From positions 1 to 31,291 of IMG/VR virus record IMGVR_UViG_3300027852_000129: a stretch of DNA of 31,291 bases. The stretch is one strand, 5' to 3'. Origin of the DNA: a virus. Positions 15,299 to 30,834 of this stretch are shown here, one piece after another; position 1 is the first letter of the stretch, and each line of letters starts with the position of its first letter. The notes under the pieces are model-generated. The model searched no databases, had not been told where the DNA came from, and saw nothing but the letters and a program-made list of their open reading frames with translations. The translations under genes and the position numbers were made by a program.

Positions 15299-15585
15299 TT
15301 TTGGTATATTTCCACCATCACGGTCGAAATTATCTTTAATATTGGTCTTATGGACCTCGCGCTTATATTCTGAGCTTTCCCTATTGATTCTACTGTTTTA
15401 TTGTTCATAGAAGATATCAGAAACCTAGTTCCAAATTCTCCAATATGCCTACTGATTTCTTTTTCTTTTTCAGTTGGATTTTTCACGTTAGAAAAGAATC
15501 TGGTCAAAGCATCTAACTCTTCAAAAGAGAAAGAGACACTATAAGGTCTTTCTGACATTAATGCAGGAATAATTGAATTTTTCAT
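15295..15585 (-). CDS. Hypothetical protein coupled to ctrA, 96 aa
   Basis: The 96-residue, mostly helical protein ([20 protein letters not shown]) is translated with ctrA through an ATGA overlap (15582-15585), which suggests a linked role. It has no HTH that I can defend and no match to the CtrA partner SciP. The DNA is AT-rich like ctrA and unlike the stretch downstream, suggesting that the pair was acquired together. It could modulate the regulator, but that is inference from position. Confidence 0.6.
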
Positions 15586-16259
15586 TCTGGATCACGGAGT
15601 ACGTATCCCCGTCCCCATACTGTCTCGATATAGTTTTCGCCACCTGTGGCTGATTTTATTTTGTTACGCAACTTGCATATGAATACGTCTATTATTTTGA
15701 GTTCTGGTTCGTCCATGCCGCCGTATAGGTTATTTAGGAAAACTTCTTTGGTCAATATCGTATTTTTACGCAAGGAAAGTAATTCCAACATTTGGTATTC
15801 TTTACCTGTTAGTGGTACTATCTTGTTTCCTGAACTAACAGTTTTTTCATCCAGGTTTACATCAATAGAACCAGTCGTAATGATAGATTGTGGGTGTCCA
15901 TTGGAACGACGGACGATTGCCTGGATGCGAGCCGCCAGTTCTTCGCGATGAAAAGGTTTGGTCAAATAGTCATCAGCCCCGAACCCAAACCCCTTAATTT
16001 TACTTTCTGTGTCATCATCAGAGGTTAAGAACATTATAGGAGTTGAGAGGCCAGCAGATCTGATCTGACGCAAGACTTCATAACCACTGATGTCAAATAA
16101 ACTAGTATCCAACAAAATTAGATCATAATCATAAATTGTCGCTAACTCAACACACTGTTCCCCTGAATCAGTTGTGAAAGTTTTAAATCCAGCGTGAGTT
16201 AGCATTAGATCAACACTATTCGAGGTTGTTTCATCTTCTTGGGCAATTAGAACTATCAT
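15582..16259 (-). CDS. ctrA: CtrA-type response regulator, 225 aa
   Basis: Receiver domain (about residues 1-120) plus OmpR/PhoB-type winged helix (about 125-225). The sequence follows alphaproteobacterial CtrA closely: YDYDLILLD with phosphoacceptor Asp51, ADDYLTKPF, and the near-invariant stretches [16 protein letters not shown] and [14 protein letters not shown]. Differences lie in the receiver: E8-D9 in place of D8-D9, and LTSDDD in place of the usual Ser/Gly loop. I start at the ATG at 16259, after AGGAGAAAGTTA; upstream codons lack a site and do not fit CtrA. CtrA binds TTAA-N7-TTAA and controls replication and division in the host. A phage copy could redirect the host cell cycle or phage transcription. 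The DNA is AT-rich. Confidence 0.92.
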
Positions 16260-16286
16260 TAACTTTCTCCTGTTATGCTTATATTT

Positions 16287-16324
16287 ATAATAACACACTA
16301 GTTGGCAAAGACTAGCTATTTAAT
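16287..16324 (-). promoter_or_regulatory. Promoter with diverged operator, copy 10 (ctrA)
   Basis: The core CTATTT of the operator is retained in AAGACTAGCTATTTAAT (16308-16324), overlapping the TAG of the upstream gene. The -35 box is TAGTCT, spacer 16 bp, -10 box TATTAT (16287-16292). It serves ctrA. Confidence 0.55.
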
Positions 16325-21132: not shown

Positions 21133-23190
21133 TTATTTTATTTCTCCCCAGCTAGGACCACATTCGGTATCGACTTTGAACGGCACAAGTGGCTTACACC
21201 GCTTAAGAACGCAGTCGCGCATAATATCACCAACCGCCACGGCTTCTGCGACTGAACCATAGCTACCGTCTGTTTCATCATGAACCTGCAATTGCAGGTA
21301 GGCATCTGTTTTATCGATTTCGACCAGAGCCAATTTTGTTTGGTCGGCTGATGAACCTTGAATTATCCTATTTAATGCTTTGTGAGTATAGTCATAAGAA
21401 CCGTCGTCACGCTGCTCAAAGTGCAAATGTCTATTAAATATTGTCTTTACAAATCCCCTTGCTTCAGCTCTAGCTGTAGCCGCTTTCGCCAATGCCCCGA
21501 CAAATGGTGCTTCCCGGTCAAACTTGTCGAGAATTTCTTGACCTTCTTCGCCAGCCATCTCCTTGTAATAACCTGTTCCAGCTTCCATTCGTGCAGCCAT
21601 CGCGTCTTGCTTGCTATCGTGGAACTCAATGCGACGTTTCCGACCCCATCCTGATATATGTGCCCAGCGAGTAGATTTACCGATGTCCACACAGAGTTTG
21701 GCTCCACCTTCTCCGTAACATAACCCAAGGTAGATCGCCTTGGAGAACCCTCGCTCTAACTTGAATTGCTTTGGTTTGTTCTTCATCCATTCGTCAACCG
21801 CTGCGTCACCGTTAACAATACGTGTCATCATTTCATGGTTATCTGTACTTGGATCGTCTCGGTAACGCTTGGCTGCTTCCTTGGCTTTTGGAAAGTCCAT
21901 CAGTGCTGCAAAGTGTGTCGTCCAACGAGGTTCCTGCTGAGAGTAGTCATTACAGCCCCAGATTGCGCCCTCTTCTGGAATGAAGATCTTTCTCCAGTCT
22001 CCTGCGATTATTGGATCTCGGTCAGGACTCGGCTGCTGTTGCAGGTTAGGGTCAATTGCTGATAATCTGCCGTACCTGACACCTTTCTGCACACCGCTTT
22101 CTGTCTCAGCTGCTATCTGTTTAAATGAACAATGGATTTTACCATTGACAGCATACTTATGGATGGAAGCGGCGAAGGTAGTTCTAATCTTATTGACTTT
22201 ACGAGCATGTAGAATTGCAGTAGGTACTGAATGTTCCTGACTTCCGAGCAAAGCCTTATCAATTTGTGGTGCTCCAGTAGATGTCTTATTTAGACGCATT
22301 CCGATCTCTTCGAGTGCTGGTGCTATCACCTTGGGTTTCCAGATATTATCTAGCCCAATGGAAACACCTGTCTCTCGTTTGACGAGATCAATAGCCTGTT
22401 GTTCTTCATCCATAGCCCATTTCTCAATGGACGCCAACTTTTCAAAATCAATTCGCACACCACGGCGACGCATTCTCACTAATACCGGAAGGACATCCGT
22501 TTCGAGATCCCATATTTCCTGAAGACCAGCTTTCCCGATCTTCTCTTCTTGTATCTTGAGAATTTCGAGTGGCGATGTGACATCTTGTTCCCCGTAGGCA
22601 CCAACGAACCTCGCAGGTAAGCGCCAGAGACCTTTCTTAGCGTCAAGTCCATGGGCTTTTGCAGCTTCCACCAAAAGGGTTTCATCTTTAGCTTCGACGC
22701 CACATCTCTCGCCGATATTCTTAAGTGAATAGGACCAGTGCAGTTCGTTGAGTAAGGGATCAGCGATCTGAATGTCTCTAAATTTTGCATCTCGATGCCA
22801 TTCAAACCCATCGTTGTATCCATAGTCGACATCATACGCGAGATTAGCACCGACATAGTCTCCGGTGAATGTCTTGATGTTAGACCGTAGGTAATTGAGG
22901 ACTCCCTCTTCATCCATGTTATCGCCGCCCTCATGACGAATGGGGAGGTAGTGTTTCGGACCTCCGTCAATAGCGAAGGCCCACCCAACTGTATACCCAT
23001 CTCGTAGCTGACCTGTCCCCAATCCATTTCCGATTGAAGGATCTCTGGTTTCAGCATCAATAGCGATGCGCTTTGCCCCAGCCCAAGAGGGAAGATCAGA
23101 GAGGGACGGTGGTCTCCAGTCTGTCTTTGGCATGAAGAATGACATCTGGAGAGCACCGCCTTTGTTTGGATCACTTTTAGTCCGCCTCAT
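21133..23190 (-). CDS. polA: Family A DNA polymerase with 3'-5' exonuclease, 685 aa
   Basis: Proofreading domain: Asp45 and Glu47 (IDAET), Asp120 (ANLAYD), Tyr199 and Asp203 (YGEQD), all intact. There is no 5' nuclease. Polymerase motifs: A at DYSQQEPR (415-422, catalytic Asp415), B at ERGFSKAIYLGLCYGEGG (479-496) and C at LQVHDE (634-639, catalytic Asp638). In motif B the position matching E. coli Phe762 is Leu488. Leu762-type polymerases are common in marine viruses. The ATG at 23190 overlaps the TGA of the cupin gene; a second ATG 45 bp in, preceded by AAGGCGG, is also possible. It is the replicative polymerase. Confidence 0.92.
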   Translation of the reverse strand: MRRTKSDPNKGGALQMSFFMPKTDWRPPSLSDLPSWAGAKRIAIDAETRDPSIGNGLGTGQLRDGYTVGWAFAIDGGPKHYLPIRHEGGDNMDEEGVLNYLRSNIKTFTGDYVGANLAYDVDYGYNDGFEWHRDAKFRDIQIADPLLNELHWSYSLKNIGERCGVEAKDETLLVEAAKAHGLDAKKGLWRLPARFVGAYGEQDVTSPLEILKIQEEKIGKAGLQEIWDLETDVLPVLVRMRRRGVRIDFEKLASIEKWAMDEEQQAIDLVKRETGVSIGLDNIWKPKVIAPALEEIGMRLNKTSTGAPQIDKALLGSQEHSVPTAILHARKVNKIRTTFAASIHKYAVNGKIHCSFKQIAAETESGVQKGVRYGRLSAIDPNLQQQPSPDRDPIIAGDWRKIFIPEEGAIWGCNDYSQQEPRWTTHFAALMDFPKAKEAAKRYRDDPSTDNHEMMTRIVNGDAAVDEWMKNKPKQFKLERGFSKAIYLGLCYGEGGAKLCVDIGKSTRWAHISGWGRKRRIEFHDSKQDAMAARMEAGTGYYKEMAGEEGQEILDKFDREAPFVGALAKAATARAEARGFVKTIFNRHLHFEQRDDGSYDYTHKALNRIIQGSSADQTKLALVEIDKTDAYLQLQVHDETDGSYGSVAEAVAVGDIMRDCVLKRCKPLVPFKVDTECGPSWGEIK

Positions 23191-23708: not shown

Positions 23709-24304
23709 TAACCATCTCCTTGATAGCCGAATGGCTCCACCATTCCATCTCTATCGACCAAATCCGCCGCATAGTCATGCGCCTCGGGGTTGTTGCTGCC
23801 AATAACCGCGCCAAATGTGGCCAAGCCGGACCCCTGCGCTGCGCCTGTGGCCTTTGTAGGGGTTGCGGGTGGTACTGGCCAGCCTTTAACCTCACCGGCC
23901 TCTACGGACGTAATAAACGCTCGCAGCCTGTCAATGATACCGGACAAATCAATATCATTTTTCCAGTTGCAGATACCCATGGTGAGTTCTATCTCAGGCA
24001 TGGTGAAATGTTCGTTCGCATGGAGGAAGCGGTTAAGGCATATAAGTCCTTCTTGCTGGTTGGTTGGAGTGCTGCGGAAGAATGAACGGTTGGTGTAGAC
24101 ACCAGTTAGAAACCCTTCCTTAGCCTTCATCAGATAGTGAACTGACTTCTCCAAATCCTGGAGACCAGCCTTGTCTCGCCATCGTGAGATGTACTTGGTT
24201 GAGCATCCCTCGAGATAACCGAGTTGTGTGTCTGACACTAAGTCCCAATGCTGATAGTCTTTGCGGTAGTGATCGCCGCCGACCTGCATATCATTTGCTT
24301 TCAT
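23708..24304 (-). CDS. DUF3310-containing protein, 198 aa
   Basis: The N-terminus MQVGGDHYRKDYQHWDLV and the later 'YLEGCSTKYISRWRDKAGLQ' / 'DLEKSVHYL' (about residues 26-57) are diagnostic of DUF3310, a small phage domain of unknown function. A second half (about 90-198) adds an uncharacterised acidic region and a Pro/Ala-rich linker (VPPATPTKATGAAQG). The start at 24304 overlaps the upstream TGA (ATGA) and TTGGAGACAAAG precedes it. Confidence 0.75.
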   Translation of the reverse strand: MKANDMQVGGDHYRKDYQHWDLVSDTQLGYLEGCSTKYISRWRDKAGLQDLEKSVHYLMKAKEGFLTGVYTNRSFFRSTPTNQQEGLICLNRFLHANEHFTMPEIELTMGICNWKNDIDLSGIIDRLRAFITSVEAGEVKGWPVPPATPTKATGAAQGSGLATFGAVIGSNNPEAHDYAADLVDRDGMVEPFGYQGDG

Positions 24305-24861
24305 GTCTTTGTCTCCAAGTCTGGCATCATCGACCATGTGTCGTCTTTCACCCGCCAGAACAAATTCAATATTATACTGTCGTACTGATGAGCGTTCTTC
24401 TTGACATAGTTTTCGATGCGACGTTCCATTGTAGTCAGGTTCTGGTTGCCAAGCTGGATCTGATCTTTGCAGAACATATACAACTCCGTGATATCGAGAC
24501 CGTGGAGGATCTTCGCTTCCTCTTGGGTCAACAACGACATAGAGTCATCACCGAAGATCTCAGAGTTGATGTCGTGTTCCATCTGAGTGAGGTTATTCTT
24601 GTCAATAACCCCGTACCACTTGGTCGGAGATGGGATATCACCAGTCAGACGTTCAGGAATATCGTGTTCAATGATAGCCCAAATGAGGTTCCGACTGGCC
24701 TCTGGAAAAAGGATCCGAAGCATAGCCAGCATGTTGAAAGTATGCTGACCGACGGGATACTCACCGAGGATCTTCAAGCTATGGCAACGGCTGACTTCGG
24801 CAGCTTCACGACAAAACTTAATCTTGTCGACAACTGAATTAGTTTCATATACCCTGCTCAT
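24301..24861 (-). CDS. HD-domain phosphohydrolase (YfbR-like), 186 aa
   Basis: Metal-dependent phosphohydrolase. The HD pattern is complete: His27 (RCHS), His40 (VGQH), His66-Asp67 (IIEHD), Glu70 and GDIPSPTK (74-81). This matches YfbR-like deoxynucleotidases, which release dNMP phosphate, and the related dATP triphosphohydrolases. Substrate cannot be told from sequence. I start at 24861, where ATG overlaps the TGA of the thymidylate-synthase gene (ATGA). It probably removes unwanted nucleotides for DNA modification or salvage. Confidence 0.75.
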   Translation of the reverse strand: MSRVYETNSVVDKIKFCREAAEVSRCHSLKILGEYPVGQHTFNMLAMLRILFPEASRNLIWAIIEHDIPERLTGDIPSPTKWYGVIDKNNLTQMEHDINSEIFGDDSMSLLTQEEAKILHGLDITELYMFCKDQIQLGNQNLTTMERRIENYVKKNAHQYDSIILNLFWRVKDDTWSMMPDLETKT

Positions 24862-25865
24862 GCTCGGCGCTCCAGCCATTCAACACAGGCTTTACGCCAG
24901 TCTGTCGCAGCGATGCGCTCGGCACTGTCGATAGCGTTGGCGACACGATCTGGATTACCTTTGTCCTTCCAGATTCTCCATGTCAGTAACATAGGGACCG
25001 CAACCTTTTTGAAGAATGGATCTGTAAAGCCGATAGCTGGACCTTCCGACATAAACATATCAAGTTCACTGAACCACGTAGAGATTGGGGTGTTGACGAT
25101 TGGATAGGGTTTCACCCTTCCTAGTTCGTAGTCGGTGAACCCTGCTGACTTTTCCATCAACGGCATTACTTTCTCGAGTGTATCGATATAAGCGTGGAAA
25201 TTTGTACTAATCTGCCAGTAGTTGCCGACAGGGATGCCGATCCAGGAAGCCATAACTTCTTGCAGGAATGACATATGAACAGCGTTCGCACCGTAAGCAC
25301 CCCAGACCATATCATTACTCCGATTGAACACAGTCATATCAAGATGGCCGTTAGGGTTCACACGAAATGTAATAATCAGGTTACAGGGAAAGTCCTTGCC
25401 TTCCAAGCCTAGATCATCTGGTGCCGACCACATCTGGAGAACCGTGCGCCGATCATCTGGATTATTCTTGAGCAGGTTGGCAATAGTAGCAAGTTGATCA
25501 ATGGCATGAGTGCCGATGTTGCTGGTCTCAGAGAAGTGGTTCCGCCAACGATAACCATAGGCACCATGGAAGGTAACTCCGTCATCTGAATAGTTATTGA
25601 TATTTGAAGAGAACTGACTAATCCATTCTACATCATTATGACCAGCCATCATCCAGAGACATTCCATAAAGTGGAAGAATGGATTGCAGTCACGTTCAGG
25701 AAGGAACATGACTCTTTCTGTTGGTTCGCTGTATCTGGTTGTCATTGGCATAGGCATGACTTTTACAGGACCATTACGACTATCTCGCTGAACCCCTTCC
25801 GAGACTATGCGATTGACGCCCAAGAGGAGAGCTTCCTCTACGTTTCTCACTGACAAATAATGCAT
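24858..25865 (-). CDS. Thymidylate synthase / dUMP hydroxymethylase homologue, 335 aa
   Basis: Thymidylate-synthase fold. Arg pair DDRRTVLQMW (137-146), catalytic Cys161 in FPCNLI, and RSNDMVWGAYGAN (182-194). Asn194 matches the Asn that recognises uracil; dCMP hydroxymethylases carry Asp there, so dUMP is the likely substrate. The usual 'LGLPFN' is replaced by 'WGAYGAN', so this is a diverged clade. It could make dTMP or 5-hydroxymethyl-dUMP, the first step of thymidine hypermodification. The glycosyltransferase and hypermodification-type genes next to it favour the latter. The ATG at 25865 abuts the upstream TAA. Confidence 0.75.
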   Translation of the reverse strand: MHYLSVRNVEEALLLGVNRIVSEGVQRDSRNGPVKVMPMPMTTRYSEPTERVMFLPERDCNPFFHFMECLWMMAGHNDVEWISQFSSNINNYSDDGVTFHGAYGYRWRNHFSETSNIGTHAIDQLATIANLLKNNPDDRRTVLQMWSAPDDLGLEGKDFPCNLIITFRVNPNGHLDMTVFNRSNDMVWGAYGANAVHMSFLQEVMASWIGIPVGNYWQISTNFHAYIDTLEKVMPLMEKSAGFTDYELGRVKPYPIVNTPISTWFSELDMFMSEGPAIGFTDPFFKKVAVPMLLTWRIWKDKGNPDRVANAIDSAERIAATDWRKACVEWLERRA

Positions 25866-27137
25866 TTACAGTAGTACTCCAAAATGGTCGAATAATTTAT
25901 CTTCGACTTTTGATTTCATTGCGTCGGTGGCAGTTCCTTGGATACCCTCGACATCTATCTCACCGTGCGCCAAATCAATGACACGCTGCGCTATAGTCTT
26001 TCGGTCAAACATTGGTAAAATTTCACGGTTCGCATCAATCATGCGATCCGCTGTCTTTTCAGAAATACCGCTGGCATAATGAAGGAGATCAGCATACTCC
26101 TGAGCATCTGCATTCTCTGGAATGGCTATATAATGTTCACCAGCTTGAAACAGTTCTGAACCCATCCCTTTCTGTCTGGCTAAGACACAACAGCCGCGCA
26201 TCATCGCATCCACGGCTACACGGTTAAAATGACCACCAACTTTGGAATAGTTGTTGGACCATGACGGATCGACCAAGACACGGGCTTCGTTGAGATAGTT
26301 ATCAACTTGTTCCTTGTTCCAATAATCATGGTGTGTCATACCGTTGTCCAGGGCGGCGTCCCAGAACTTTGTCCCATCAGCGTGGAAGTAGGCGTCCTTG
26401 CACTTATCCTCACTAGTCATGTAGCGGTATTCAATGCCCAAGCCAGCAACCTCGCGTAACTCGTCGGCTCCACGGGGTTCCATATAGTGAACCGCTTCCA
26501 CCAACTCATGGACATGCTTCCACGCCTTGAAGGTCTGCATGTTTACAAATCCAGGAGATTTCTGTTCCCACTTAGTGTATTGACGTATAGGGTCCTTCTG
26601 TGGGTTGACAACCATTGCACGAGGGACGTCGGCAAATGCAGCACCGTTGAGGGCGCAGGGATGCACACAAGCTAGACCATCTAGGTGTTCTTGAATTGCC
26701 AGTATGTGGCCTGCTCCCTTTACGGCGTTACCGTCATGGATAAAGGCAATCTGCTTAATGCGATCTGGAAGGTCATATAAATCTGGCCAGTTATCATTAC
26801 CTAGATTATCTTTATTCTTACTCGGAACAGGCATTGTCCATATAATCAGATCGTACTGTTCCAGGATTCGCTTCGCCCCGTTTAAAGCGGCACTACCACG
26901 ATAAGGAATGCGATCCCTCCGATCAAAGTTCCAGCCTTTGCCTTGATTATGGGGAATACCACTAGGACCGATAGTCCAATCTGCGGTTTTGCGTTGAGCT
27001 GGTGCATTGAATGACCATACCAGTTCTTTAAGCTGAACATTGTGTCCGATATCTTGTAGACCACCGATTAGCTGTTCTGTGTGGTCTATAATTCCACCGA
27101 GGTCCATGCATTTATGAAGGGCGATTAGTATCTTCAT
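25866..27137 (-). CDS. GT-B-fold glycosyltransferase, 423 aa
   Basis: The N-terminus MKILIALHKCMDLGGIIDHT is a Rossmann-type acceptor domain with the Gly-rich loop. The second domain has the family pattern: ARVLVDPSWSNNYSKVGGHF and VAVDAMMRGCCVLAR (about residues 295-330), equivalent to 'P-S-x-x-E-x-x-G-x-x-x-x-E-A-M-A-x-G-x-P-V' of GT4-type enzymes. It would transfer a sugar from a nucleotide sugar. Its place directly upstream of the thymidylate-synthase homologue suggests DNA base glycosylation rather than a surface polysaccharide. It is first in the nucleotide operon from 27166-27206. TTGGAGATGACCCA precedes its ATG. Confidence 0.7.
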   Translation of the reverse strand: MKILIALHKCMDLGGIIDHTEQLIGGLQDIGHNVQLKELVWSFNAPAQRKTADWTIGPSGIPHNQGKGWNFDRRDRIPYRGSAALNGAKRILEQYDLIIWTMPVPSKNKDNLGNDNWPDLYDLPDRIKQIAFIHDGNAVKGAGHILAIQEHLDGLACVHPCALNGAAFADVPRAMVVNPQKDPIRQYTKWEQKSPGFVNMQTFKAWKHVHELVEAVHYMEPRGADELREVAGLGIEYRYMTSEDKCKDAYFHADGTKFWDAALDNGMTHHDYWNKEQVDNYLNEARVLVDPSWSNNYSKVGGHFNRVAVDAMMRGCCVLARQKGMGSELFQAGEHYIAIPENADAQEYADLLHYASGISEKTADRMIDANREILPMFDRKTIAQRVIDLAHGEIDVEGIQGTATDAMKSKVEDKLFDHFGVLL

Positions 27138-27165
27138 TGGGTCATCTCCAATAGGTTATTAGCTA

Positions 27166-27206
27166 ACCATAGTAACGGAGGGCGCAAAAGACAAGTGCTA
27201 TTTGTC
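27166..27206 (-). promoter_or_regulatory. Promoter with palindromic operator, copy 12
   Basis: GACAAGTGCTATTTGTC at 27190-27206 is a good palindrome. The -35 box is TTGTCT, spacer 17 bp, -10 box TATGGT (27166-27171). It drives about nine genes from the glycosyltransferase to dCMP deaminase. Confidence 0.75.
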
Positions 27207-27219
27207 ACCCTCCTCTAGA

Positions 27220-28131
27220 TTACTTCGGCGCTTTGTAGCGAGACCGTGGTCTTCCTTGACCCAAGCGAACCCGTTCATACTTATCGAACTCACAAAGTTG
27301 GAACTGGATATCATGAGGGGCAAGACTATCCCACTCATCAGGTAGGAACAGATCTTGTTGTACCATTAGATCATCGATAATATTACCGGCATCTTCTTCC
27401 TTTAGCGGCTTGGCTTCGTCGTCACCGCTGACCCGTGCTGCACCACGTCGCGCTCCTGGACCAATGGGTGTCCAGCTATCCCAGTCCATCGGAAAGCTAA
27501 AAATTCCATCCTTAGGATGATTAATCCAATTATCCCAGAAGGAAGTGTAGGTAGTATCCAGCAAGATTTCCTTAGTCATGAAACCAGACCCTCCGAAACC
27601 TTGGATCTTCCTCATCTCAGTAGCGACATCTTCCCACGATTCGGTTGCGATAGTCAGATCACGCAAGTCCTCAGCTTGTTTCTGTAGAGCCTTGAGGAAG
27701 TATTCCACGACAACTTCCTGTTTAGGAGCAGATATTCCTTGGTTCGTAATAACATAGGCTCCCGTAAAGACGCGCTCCTTGTTAGCCAGTCGGTCCTCGG
27801 CAACTTCTTTCACATGTTCCCAATGATTATTGTCCATATCTTCAAAATGAGTCCAACCAATAGCCTCTGCGAATTCGTATGTCCCAAAGTAGCGGAAGGT
27901 AGCTGCATTCATCAGGATTGTTTTCTTGTCCGCATGGAAGTTCGGAGTATAGAACAACCCACGGAGAACACGACTTGTCCGATCGTGATGACGGTGAACG
28001 TTGGTGAATTTATAGTCCCTGAGGATCTGATCTTTAGTCCAAGGATATGGCAAATCCGCCTCCTTTCGGAGACGGATCTGTTCACGTTCCTCAACAAAGC
28101 TGAAGAACGCATTGGCTCTTGACAGAACCAT
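27220..28131 (-). CDS. Putative DNA base hypermodification protein, 303 aa
   Basis: The N-terminus reads FVEEREQIRLRKEADLPYPW then TKDQILRDYKFTNVHRHHDR (about residues 12-51). This 'R-x-x-I-x-x-x-R ... PWT-x-D-x-I-L-x-x-Y-x-F-T-N-V-x-R-x-x-D-R' pattern is the signature, as I recall it, of the helical family that includes alpha-glutamyl/putrescinyl-thymine pyrophosphorylases and the helical domain of 5-hmdU DNA kinases. A later PIGPGARRGAAR (about 222-233) fits its helix-hairpin-helix-like part. These enzymes build hypermodified thymines on DNA. There is no P-loop kinase domain. Its ATG follows the upstream stop (TAATG). Confidence 0.65.
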   Translation of the reverse strand: MVLSRANAFFSFVEEREQIRLRKEADLPYPWTKDQILRDYKFTNVHRHHDRTSRVLRGLFYTPNFHADKKTILMNAATFRYFGTYEFAEAIGWTHFEDMDNNHWEHVKEVAEDRLANKERVFTGAYVITNQGISAPKQEVVVEYFLKALQKQAEDLRDLTIATESWEDVATEMRKIQGFGGSGFMTKEILLDTTYTSFWDNWINHPKDGIFSFPMDWDSWTPIGPGARRGAARVSGDDEAKPLKEEDAGNIIDDLMVQQDLFLPDEWDSLAPHDIQFQLCEFDKYERVRLGQGRPRSRYKAPK

Positions 28132-28853
28132 TACTCGGCAGCGGCTTTCGCAGCAGCTTTGTCGGCAGCGGCCTTCTCTTTGGCGGCTTTAGCTTCGGCA
28201 CGTTCTTTTGCCTTGGCTTCCTTCGCAGCTTCACGCTCGGCTTTCTTAGCAGCAGCAGCTTCTTCACGCTCAGCTTTCGCCTTGGCGCGTTCTTCAGCTT
28301 TCTGCACTTTTGCTGCCTCTGGGTCTGTGAGACCATGCTTCTTGTACCAAGCAGCCTTGCGAGTAACGTACTCATCAGGAGTTGGTTCAGTGATAGTCAT
28401 GATGCCTTGGTTAGTCCAGAAATAAGCGTCCCACGGCTCAGTACCTTCTGTCTCGATGATGTCAACAATCGTCATGCCGTCTTTGTAGTTCGGCCAGCGA
28501 TGGGCGCGGCCCTGAGTACCGTCGTGCTCACCAGTTTTCTTAATAGTCGAGAACATCTTCGCATTTGGACGCTTGACTGTTTTTGCTTCCGCTGATTTGG
28601 CCAGACCGCGCTCTTTAGGTGGAGCCTTCGGCTTCTTGGCTTTGGCTTCCTTCGCAGGTACTTCTGCCGCCTTAGCATGGCGTTGCAACGCTTTCCAGGT
28701 CTGAGTAGCACCAGCGGCCTGATCTTTGAACCCATTGACTTCCGCAACTTTGAGGCTAACTGCCACTTCGTTACGCAGAGACAGAAGATCGTCCACGGAC
28801 ATTTTGGCCAACCCGGCCTCGTTATATTCAGTGTCATTGAAGGTAATATTCAT
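28131..28853 (-). CDS. Protein with Lys/Ala-rich C-terminal tail, 240 aa
   Basis: The start at 28853 (ATG, after GGAGTAAGTG) is preferred to the GTG three bases upstream. The product has a short acidic N-terminal domain (MNITFNDTEYNEAGLAKMSV), a Lys/Ala-rich linker, a central folded part (about residues 100-180; RWPNYKDGMTIVDIIETEG, TPDEYVTRKAAWYKKHGL), and a C-terminal run of about 60 residues of Ala, Lys, Glu and Arg only (AEREEAAAAKKAERE type), a long charged helix. Such tails occur in histone-like and DNA-condensing proteins. I do not recognise the core. It is co-transcribed with the hypermodification-type gene. Confidence 0.6.
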   Translation of the reverse strand: MNITFNDTEYNEAGLAKMSVDDLLSLRNEVAVSLKVAEVNGFKDQAAGATQTWKALQRHAKAAEVPAKEAKAKKPKAPPKERGLAKSAEAKTVKRPNAKMFSTIKKTGEHDGTQGRAHRWPNYKDGMTIVDIIETEGTEPWDAYFWTNQGIMTITEPTPDEYVTRKAAWYKKHGLTDPEAAKVQKAEERAKAKAEREEAAAAKKAEREAAKEAKAKERAEAKAAKEKAAADKAAAKAAAE

Positions 28854-28906
28854 CACTTACTCCGTTTCTGTGATATTCAGTATCGCCTCGGATTAAGGCA
28901 TATTTG

Positions 28907-28962: not shown

Positions 28963-30834
28963 TTAGTCTGCACATGCTCCAGTCTTGCGGCCGAACTCAT
29001 CCAAGGTACAGGCTCCTCCGAAATCATCCTCTTTTTGCAGTTCCGCGACCTTGATAATCTCAGCATCAGCTTCCTCATCGCCATCTGCGGCTTTGATTGG
29101 CTCGTCGTAGTTACCAGCAGGACGATAAGTAGTCAGTCCTTTCGCGCCGTTTTCCCATGCTGACATATAGATGTTCTTAAAGTCTTCGTATGAGAAGTCT
29201 GCAGGAACGTTGCATGTTTTCGAGACCGCGCTGTCACTCCACCTTTGAGCAGTGCAAAGAACAGCGACGTGTTCATCAGCAGTGATGTTTCCGTCAGTAA
29301 CGGTGCGACCCTCATGCCCAAGAACGGCGACACCATAGTCAGGAATTAGAACAGTCTCTACACCAGACTTCATGATGACATTGCGCTTCTGCTTGTATGC
29401 GATGACTGGCTCAATGCCAGACGATACGTTATCAGCATAGAGGGAGATAGTGCCAGTCGGCGCGACACTGGTTAAGTGACTATTACGGATACCGTGCTTC
29501 TTGATCAATTTGATCGTGTCTTCCCATAGACCTCCGACGAACTTAGATGCAAGGTAGCGTGTCTCGTCATACAGTGGAAACGAGCCCTTTTCAGCAGCCA
29601 GTAGAGCTGATGCTTGGTAGCAGTGATTAGTGATGAACTCACCAAGTCTGTCCTGAAACTCTATGAATTTCGGTGTACCGTAAGGAAATCCCATTGCTTC
29701 AAGAGCATTGGCTAGACCCGTGATGCCGAGACCCATGCGCCGCTTTCTTTGGGCTTCCATCTTCTGTTGAGGAAGAGGGTAACGGCTCCGATCGATGACA
29801 TTATCCATAGCGCGTACTACGCTAGGAATATCTTTTTCCAATTGCGCCCAATTGAAACGCCATTCGGGTCCTTCTGATGCATCCTTGTAGAGGTACTTCA
29901 CAACGTTAAATGAGCCCAAGAGGCAGGCACCGTAGGGAGGAAGAGGCTGTTCGCCACAAGGATTAGTTGCTGCAATCTGTTCGCAGTAGTAGAGATTATT
30001 CATCTCGTTAATGCGGTCGATGAACAGGACTCCCGGTTCGGCCCAATCGTACGTTCCACGCATGATCATATCCCACAGAGCGCGGGCGCTGACTTCACGG
30101 TAATCAACACCGCCAAATTTCAGCATGAACATTCCGTCTGCTTTTACAGCTTCCATCAGTTCATCGGTCACTGCGACTGACATATTGAAACCGCGCAGAG
30201 GACGATATTCCCATGGAATATTTTCATCTGTGACTTGTTTGGCGCGGATGAACTCCTCAATATCAGGGTGATCACATCGCATGACCATCATCTGTGCGCC
30301 GCGCCTGTTGCCTGCGCTGCTAGTTGCGCGGCATACCATGTCAAAAATACCAGCGAACACCAGCGGACCGTCTGTGGTACTGTCAACGCCCTTTATAATG
30401 TCACCTGATGGGCGCAAGGTGCTGAAATCATAACCCACGCCACCACCTTGTCGCATAGTCGTTGCAGCCAGCTTAGCTACGTCCATGATACTTTCGGAAG
30501 GGTGCTGAAGTGCGGTCGTACACATAAGGCGCTCGGCCTCGGTAGGACCATCGACAAAACTGTCGTGAATAGTAGGCATAACAAAGCAATTATAAAGTGT
30601 GACATTCTTCAGGGAACCAGCGCCAGCTTGGACACGTCCTGGAGGCATGAACCGTTGATCCATGGTACATTCTCGAAATGCCATGTAGTGTTCATGGGAG
30701 TCTTGAAGAAATCCCGCCACCCGATTACTCGCCTCTCGATGGTCTTCGTTTTTGCCTCGGTATTTCTCCGCGCCGATAGCATCGCAGTGTGGATTTTGTG
30801 GACCAGTCATCCGCCGCTTCTCCTGATTTCTCAT
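28963..30834 (-). CDS. nrdJ: Class II (B12-dependent) ribonucleotide reductase, 623 aa
   Basis: Reduces ribonucleotides to deoxynucleotides using adenosylcobalamin. The barrel core has Cys83 (LYNCFV), GGGVGYDFS (130-138), the loop NPCGEQPL (291-298) with the thiyl-radical Cys293, and GACLLGSFN with a further Cys304. A late block SVAPTGTISLYADNVSSGIEP matches the family. The C-terminus has Cys in CTLDEFGRKTGACAD, likely the shuttle pair that re-reduces the active site. It lacks an ATP-cone, so allosteric activity control is probably absent. The ATG at 30834 follows AGGAAACAACTT. Class II enzymes need no oxygen, suiting anaerobic or B12-rich hosts. Confidence 0.9.
   Translation of the reverse strand: MRNQEKRRMTGPQNPHCDAIGAEKYRGKNEDHREASNRVAGFLQDSHEHYMAFRECTMDQRFMPPGRVQAGAGSLKNVTLYNCFVMPTIHDSFVDGPTEAERLMCTTALQHPSESIMDVAKLAATTMRQGGGVGYDFSTLRPSGDIIKGVDSTTDGPLVFAGIFDMVCRATSSAGNRRGAQMMVMRCDHPDIEEFIRAKQVTDENIPWEYRPLRGFNMSVAVTDELMEAVKADGMFMLKFGGVDYREVSARALWDMIMRGTYDWAEPGVLFIDRINEMNNLYYCEQIAATNPCGEQPLPPYGACLLGSFNVVKYLYKDASEGPEWRFNWAQLEKDIPSVVRAMDNVIDRSRYPLPQQKMEAQRKRRMGLGITGLANALEAMGFPYGTPKFIEFQDRLGEFITNHCYQASALLAAEKGSFPLYDETRYLASKFVGGLWEDTIKLIKKHGIRNSHLTSVAPTGTISLYADNVSSGIEPVIAYKQKRNVIMKSGVETVLIPDYGVAVLGHEGRTVTDGNITADEHVAVLCTAQRWSDSAVSKTCNVPADFSYEDFKNIYMSAWENGAKGLTTYRPAGNYDEPIKAADGDEEADAEIIKVAELQKEDDFGGACTLDEFGRKTGACAD

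Follow-up and report, generated by a model that had tools for sequence, protein, structure and literature searches.

Genes at the locus

We analyzed the viral record IMGVR_UViG_3300027852_000129, a fragment of 31,291 bases that is referred to here as a whole as the window, for a candidate DNA hypermodification cassette. The cassette consists of a protein of the HMUDK_hel family (PF18723, called HEL here), a glycosyltransferase (GT), and a thymidylate synthase (TS) homologue, and it is predicted to place a sugar on 5-hydroxymethyldeoxyuridine (5-hmdU) in phage DNA. The core features are listed below, with Pfam cut-offs of 25 bits (PF18723), 26.4 bits (PF00534), and 24.3 bits (PF00303).

27220..28131, minus strand: HEL, 303 aa; PF18723 HMUDK_hel / aGPT-PPlase clade 1, 116.9 bits
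27138..27219, minus strand: spacer between HEL and GT; conserved inverted repeat around GACAA..TTGTC
25866..27137, minus strand: glycosyltransferase, 423 aa, predicted GT-B fold of the GT4/AGT type; PF00534 Glycos_transf_1, 36.2 bits
24858..25865, minus strand: TS homologue, 335 aa, of putative dUMP-hydroxymethyltransferase type; PF00303 Thymidylat_synt, 96.6 bits

The three core open reading frames (ORFs) were real and intact. The initial annotation had placed three such genes within 3.3 kb, with the GT directly upstream of the TS homologue, and this layout was confirmed: positions 24858-28131 are the outer ends of the HEL, GT, and TS ORFs, and the GT ORF scored over the PF00534 cut-off. The 303-aa protein, previously noted for a signature of thymine-hypermodification helical enzymes, matched PF18723 over profile positions 5 to 276 of 281. 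It is the orthologue of phage M6 gp55, which is catalogued as the helical portion of the 5-hmdU DNA kinase, and is thus equivalent to the non-P-loop partner of that kinase, not to the amino-acid transferase. HEL was present in eight of eight records, M6 included. The HEL-GT-TS arrangement was found again in independent records, which indicates that it is not a product of chance.

The HEL-GT spacer was predicted to fold with an energy of -26.9 kcal/mol (z = -3.09), and the core of its inverted repeat was nearly identical in the window, its nearest relative L004, L030, and L032; the repeat is a possible regulatory hairpin. A sigma-54 reading of the spacer, judged by eye, was rejected because the spacing was off.

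HEL is accompanied by a kinase or by one of two glycosyltransferases

Four alignment-based scans of viral contigs yielded 314 HEL loci (80, then 78, 77, and 79 new), each scan being limited to the best 80 of 426 to 573 confirmed relatives, and the sample is weighted to the four starting points. After addition of the window and nine named phages, the set comprised 324 loci in 242 clusters at 95% identity. Three of the 242 clusters, in which the HEL envelope was missing or shorter than 220 residues, were dropped, and 239 were kept. Partner enzymes within 7 kb were labelled with home-made iterated profiles at strict cut-offs (100 bits for the kinase, 100 bits for GT4, and 80 bits for the glycosyltransferase TAGT, PF20691), which removed the weak kinase matches (28 to 92 bits) of a looser first labelling. 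TAGT belongs to a recognized family of phage DNA glycosyltransferases, and the window GT showed no match to PF20691 at an E value of 1. Of the TAGT labels that were tried, Pfam confirmed four out of four and PHROG likewise four out of four; for later labels, at the distant end of the set, the figures were one of three with PHROG and none of one with Pfam.

Among the 239 clusters, the partner was TAGT in 67, the kinase in 48, the window-type GT in 26, both kinase and TAGT in 1, and none in 97. A TS homologue was found within 7 kb in 168 clusters, of which 88 carried a GT (62 TAGT and 26 window-type), 45 carried a kinase, 35 carried neither, and none carried both, whereas 23.6 clusters with both partners would be expected from these counts under independence. 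The amino acid:DNA transferase ADDT was found near 29 of the 45 kinase clusters, none of the 88 GT clusters, and 1 of the 35 unlabelled clusters. Walker A proteins of 140 to 330 aa were located within 7 kb in 41/45 kinase, 0/26 window-type GT, 5/62 TAGT, and 18/35 unlabelled clusters, the last figure indicating that some kinases were missed by the profiles. Four of the five such proteins in TAGT clusters resembled thymidylate kinase by eye, and that of Microbacterium phage GreenIvy matched phrog_4121. HEL, partner, and TS lay on one strand in all window-type (26/26), TAGT (62/62), and kinase (45/45) clusters, and the partner lay between HEL and TS in 20/26, 49/62, and 6/45 of them, respectively.

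Next, the partners were mapped onto a tree built from 141 labelled HEL proteins by a quick search; some of its branches are long. The label required 13 changes for the kinase, 9 for the window-type GT, and 14 for TAGT, of which at least 8, 8, and 10 changes, respectively, were forced by supported branches. In none of the 11 independent pairs did the GT label change in parallel with the kinase label; it changed in the opposite direction or stayed the same (median p = 0.03). The corresponding comparison of ADDT with GT was not significant (median p = 0.25). The safer examples of a swap are the pairs L052 (kinase) and L048 (window-type GT), with 63% HEL identity, and L046 (TAGT) and L042 (window-type GT), with 62%. 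The pair L347 and L320 (TAGT versus kinase, HEL 90% identical) was rejected as a showcase because the L347 GT was linked to TAGT only by hhalign (87%). What is new in these results is that HEL, presumed to be a kinase subunit, occurs either with kinases or with GTs of two unrelated kinds; an earlier description of kinase-less HEL-GT loci in print is possible.

Several loci carried additional genes. A TAGT-labelled locus (L045:11633-13588) contained an APH-like kinase and a MobA-like NTP transferase between HEL and TS, both below cut-off, and a phospho-linked decoration of the sugar is possible at this locus. Beside HEL-GT-TS, an FkbM methyltransferase and a radical SAM/SPASM protein were found at L041:10930-12650, and an NDP-sugar epimerase at L044:10895-11845; the SPASM cluster was present in nine loci. 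Locus L104 had a second HEL gene about 4 kb from the first and on the other strand, and no TS was found within 7 kb. The HEL-GT-TS block also occurred in metagenome bins, one titled Cytophagaceae and one Flavobacteriaceae, and these copies are probably phage contigs.

Predicted fold and conserved residues of HEL

The AlphaFold2 model of HEL had a predicted local distance difference test (pLDDT) score of 95.3. The initial annotation had proposed a structure-based search of this protein, and in VIA the top row was PaMx11 gp46, a 5-phosphomethyl-dU glycinyltransferase (PUGT), at a Z score of 10.9 over 220 residues; chance alone can produce values of this size for helical models. The following rows were the queuine-salvage protein DUF2419 and then a run of helix-hairpin-helix (HhH) DNA glycosylases, which made up most of the rows with a Z score above 5. 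No match was obtained with a HEL profile against PDB sequences at an E value of 1. The fold of HEL is probably HhH DNA-glycosylase-like. HEL-family proteins were reportedly proposed to derive from DNA glycosylases in the computational work of Iyer (2013).

Eighteen HEL positions were at least 90% identical across all three partner groups, and no position separated the kinase clusters from the window-type GT clusters. The same conserved residues with any partner fit an adaptor whose substrate is fixed and whose enzymes are exchangeable and, equally, a conserved catalyst, and a rival explanation was therefore kept. According to it, HEL has catalytic activity of its own, is related to PUGT, and introduces or changes a group on the base or the sugar, and the GT performs a separate step. 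The top VIA match would suit such an enzyme, and the conserved polar residues R16, N44, R47, D50, R80, D192, E281, and K284 resemble a pocket. However, a profile comparison of HEL with M6 ADDT gave no match (probability, 0.2), the GT lineage lacks a kinase that could produce the activated 5-phosphomethyl base, and identical residues are conserved with kinase and GT partners. We regard a catalytic HEL as unlikely. The adaptor role is suggested because a fold like that of base-flipping glycosylases is probable and because the conserved residues are the same with every partner; that HEL serves as an adaptor for the GT has about an even chance of being correct.

Predicted fold of the glycosyltransferase

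The AlphaFold2 model of the GT had a pLDDT of 93.4. In VIA, entries of phage T4 AGT held ranks 1 to 5, with Z scores of 26.3 to 27.3 and 334 to 343 aligned residues; the best match had a Z score of 27.3 and a root mean square deviation of 3.6 over 334 residues, and the identity over the structural alignments was 11 to 13%. The pair H134-D135 was invariant in 25 GT sequences and was aligned in a profile comparison (probability, 71) with H114-D115 of AGT, the catalytic pair of that enzyme. The protein is predicted to have an AGT-type GT-B fold and is a candidate 5-hmdU DNA glycosyltransferase.

Alternatively, the GT could act on the host surface or on some acceptor other than DNA, which would leave plain 5-hmdU in the DNA. 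The sequence similarity to GT4 enzymes of PF00534, which mostly act on surface polysaccharides, and the position of cellular GT4 folds within about 1 Z unit of AGT are in line with this idea. Nevertheless, AGT entries took the first five VIA ranks, the GT shared the strand of HEL and TS in every window-type cluster and lay between them in 20, the known DNA-GT family TAGT occupied the same place at other HEL loci, and no GT accompanied a kinase in the 168 clusters with a TS nearby. A surface or other non-DNA acceptor is thus quite improbable, and a DNA acceptor is preferred for the GT.

Comparison with phage M6 and absence of the kinase

The gene order in M6 is ribonucleotide reductase (RNR), gp49, gp51 (ADDT), gp52 (PALP), gp53 (radical SAM), gp54 (P-loop 5-hmdU kinase), gp55 (HEL), gp56 (Nmad5), gp58 (TS), gp59 (HD), and gp62 (PolA, the family A DNA polymerase). 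In the window and six related contigs, RNR, the gp49 relative, HEL, TS, HD, and PolA were kept wherever the contig reaches, and the GT was located between HEL and TS, in place of gp51 to gp54. The window lineage is therefore like the thymidine hypermodification pathway of M6 (5-NedU) in its order RNR-gp49-gp55(HEL)-TS-HD-PolA-dCMP deaminase-primase, its dUMP-hydroxymethyltransferase-type enzyme, and its HEL orthologue, but it has a GT instead of ADDT, PALP, radical SAM, the P-loop kinase, and Nmad5. The neighboring features of the window are as follows.

28963..30834, minus strand: RNR large subunit; PF02867, 353.7 bits; upstream boundary of the block, also in M6
28131..28856, minus strand: Lys/Ala-rich protein, 241 aa, between RNR and HEL; BLAST relationship to M6 gp49
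24301..24879, minus strand: HD-domain 5'-deoxynucleotidase-like protein, 192 aa; PF12917, 30.3 bits
23187-23708, minus strand: cupin-like protein; matches phrog_4786, 'cysteine dioxygenase'
21133..23190, minus strand: family A DNA polymerase (PolA), 685 aa; PF00476, 124 bits
19777..20232, minus strand: dCMP deaminase, 151 aa; PF00383, 70.5 bits; phrog_174

The order of transcription on the minus strand is RNR, the Lys/Ala-rich protein, HEL, GT, TS, HD, DUF3310, cupin, and PolA, followed by dCMP deaminase and primase. The Lys/Ala-rich protein was kept across the GT lineage, as judged by BLAST of the relatives against window and M6 proteins, and gave no match in a Pfam search. Orthologues of the HD protein matched M6 gp59, which makes the window HD protein the gp59 equivalent. 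In L004, the DUF3310 gene abuts PolA directly, without an intervening cupin gene. An OmpR-type response regulator (PF00072 and PF00486) was found at 15582-16298 on the minus strand of the window, inside the phage replication-gene block.

The initial annotation had seen no P-loop 5-hmdU kinase and had proposed a search for it beyond the window; none was found in the window or in its relatives. The 5-hmdU kinase families PF18748 and PF18747 were missing from all seven cassette records in whole-record searches (in the M6 control, only PF18748 of the two was found), as was the amino acid:DNA transferase PF18724, for which the M6 control was positive. No stop-to-stop ORF of at least 80 aa in the window contained the Walker A motif [AG]xxxxGK[ST]. 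In two relatives with terminal direct repeats (127 bp in 63,560 bases and 91 bp in 62,764 bases), this motif occurred only in terminase-like and helicase-like proteins, so named from the motif context, and in three ORFs of 92, 97, and 155 aa. The absence of the kinase from these two relatives indicates more than an effect of fragmentation. An M6-type route that relies on a kinase gene located elsewhere or on a host kinase would agree with the adjacency of HEL and kinase in M6 and with the fragmentary state of the window, but it is highly improbable given two terminal-repeat relatives with neither a kinase family member nor a small Walker A kinase, and given the lack of ADDT. In the M6 and PAKlein3 records, the genes at L002:5716-6279 (M6 gp54) and L025:5435-6004 are both annotated as 'terminase small subunit'; M6 gp54 matched PF18748 over the cut-off, and the PAKlein3 counterpart scored below it.

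The TS homologue

The TS homologue matched phrog_5131 (412 bits) and was 51% identical over 100% of its length to enzymes of M6-like Pseudomonas phages, some of which are annotated as deoxyuridylate hydroxymethyltransferase; its similarity to cellular TS was weak. Cys161 aligned with the catalytic Cys of TS, and Asn194 aligned with the Asn of uracil-type TS, a position occupied by Asp in the CMP hydroxymethylase of PDB entry 5b6d. These results agree with the earlier description of a diverged homologue that keeps the uracil-type Asn. Near HEL, this Asn was found in 26/26 window-type, 44/45 kinase (with one gap), 57/62 TAGT, and 29/33 unlabelled clusters, and the five TAGT exceptions, the GreenIvy group, carried Asp. 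The residue after the catalytic Cys was Asn instead of His in 26/26 window-type and 45/45 kinase-linked enzymes. From the close homology and the active site, we infer that the 335-aa protein is of the dUMP-hydroxymethyltransferase type and would produce 5-hmdUMP. A plain thymidylate synthase in a coincidental neighborhood, for which the retained Asn and Cys could speak, is scarcely credible in view of the 51% identity to dUMP-hydroxymethyltransferase-type enzymes, the weak similarity to cellular TS, and the Asn in place of His. The GreenIvy locus (L023) combines HEL, two TAGT genes, and a TS homologue with Asp, and is possibly a 5-hydroxymethylcytosine (5-hmC) version of the cassette.

Proposed pathway

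In the proposed pathway, dCMP deaminase would supply dUMP, which the TS homologue would turn into 5-hmdUMP. Kinases would then make 5-hmdUTP, and the phage PolA would incorporate it into DNA. The AGT-fold GT, judging from its fold, catalytic pair, and linkage, would transfer a sugar from a nucleotide sugar straight onto the 5-hydroxymethyl group. HEL would recognize 5-hmdU in DNA and present it to its partner, which is a P-loop kinase in M6 and would be the GT here, and the HD protein may limit dTTP. It is very likely that the cassette makes 5-hmdU, and the placement of a sugar on 5-hmdU is likely on the basis of genomics and structure. The whole explanation, in which 5-hmdU is incorporated and glycosylated in DNA and HEL presents the modified DNA to exchangeable enzymes, is given a probability of roughly 0.72. 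A sugar decoration, and a chemistry that differs because the kinase is missing, had both been suggested earlier and are favored by comparative genomics and fold prediction. The modification presumably confers resistance to host nucleases.

A broader proposal is that the name HMUDK_hel is a misnomer. The family would be a general adaptor for 5-hmdU DNA that flips or presents the base, and phages would have repeatedly swapped the enzyme docked to it. The docked enzymes would be P-loop kinases, which lead to decoration with amino acids, or GTs of two kinds that share no structural relationship (the AGT-like GT-B and the TAGT GT-A), in some lineages with further sugar tailoring by radical SAM/SPASM proteins, an FkbM methyltransferase, an epimerase, and an NTP transferase. 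We put this forward tentatively, at slightly less than even odds.

Several observations weigh against the proposed pathway. For HEL, the similarity to PUGT and the glycosylases lies within the chance range given above, and Foldseek with the HEL model returned no match below an E value of 0.001. For the GT, cellular GT4 enzymes followed AGT closely in VIA (6eji, Z = 26.1; HepE, Z = 25.9), leaving AGT a small lead, and Foldseek placed them ahead of AGT, which first appeared at rank 15; with cellular GT4 folds nearly as close, a DNA acceptor does not follow from the fold by itself. Sequence searches linked the GT to no AGT: there was no match among 50,697 named phage records at an E value of 0.01 and none in PHROGs, a 6-sequence GT profile gave a single weak match (HepE) among PDB sequences, and a 25-sequence profile gave 41 matches with HepE on top and AGT absent. 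In the survey, 35 of the 168 clusters carried neither partner by these models, and L269, with no TS within 7 kb, was the sole HEL cluster labelled with both TAGT and kinase. The labels came from our own profiles; the L052 kinase and two L320 kinases scored below the PF18748 cut-off, and the L347 GT had no Pfam or PHROG match. The window itself is a fragment. Finally, AGT is not known to work with HEL in T4, and thus the GT need not require it.

Relation to known systems

T4 AGT resembles the GT as the closest solved fold in VIA, with an aligned His-Asp pair, and acts on a hydroxymethylpyrimidine in DNA, but its acceptor in T4 is 5-hmC. No HEL partner is known for AGT. The closest loci in print are those of the pelagiphage HTVC023P type (PMC9599517), which combine a 5-hmdU-type TS, the HEL-family aGPT-PPlase1, and a DNA-type GT near PolA. 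The GT is called there 'beta-glucosyl-HMC-alpha-glucosyltransferase', the name of phrog_842, which in our set accompanied TAGT (PF20691) and not the window GT. The authors read the GT as an extra function, and neither loss of the kinase nor exchange of partners is described in the available text.

The glucosylated dihydroxypentyluracil of Bacillus phage SP-15 is likewise a hypermodified thymine with a sugar, associated with a TS-type hydroxymethyluridylate synthase and glycosyltransferases, and shows that such sugars exist (PMC5977210). It differs in a ten-gene cluster that resembles teichuronic acid synthesis and in its glucuronolactone phosphate, and HEL is unmentioned in the available text. 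A solitary TAGT with an unknown role was reported in 288 of 753 phage genomes in a 2026 paper (PMC13216743), and HEL-TAGT-TS loci may account for part of these. The 5-hmdU kinase is described as sequence selective for TG or TC (PMC6449724, PMC7653180); together with the shared HEL, this selectivity predicts the same sequence context for the sugar.

If the proposed pathway is true, the decoration of 5-hmdU in many uncultivated phages would extend beyond amino-acid derivatives to sugars, and a family that takes its name from a kinase would gain a partner-independent role. This would bear on the host defenses that such phages evade and on new labelling tools for modified DNA.

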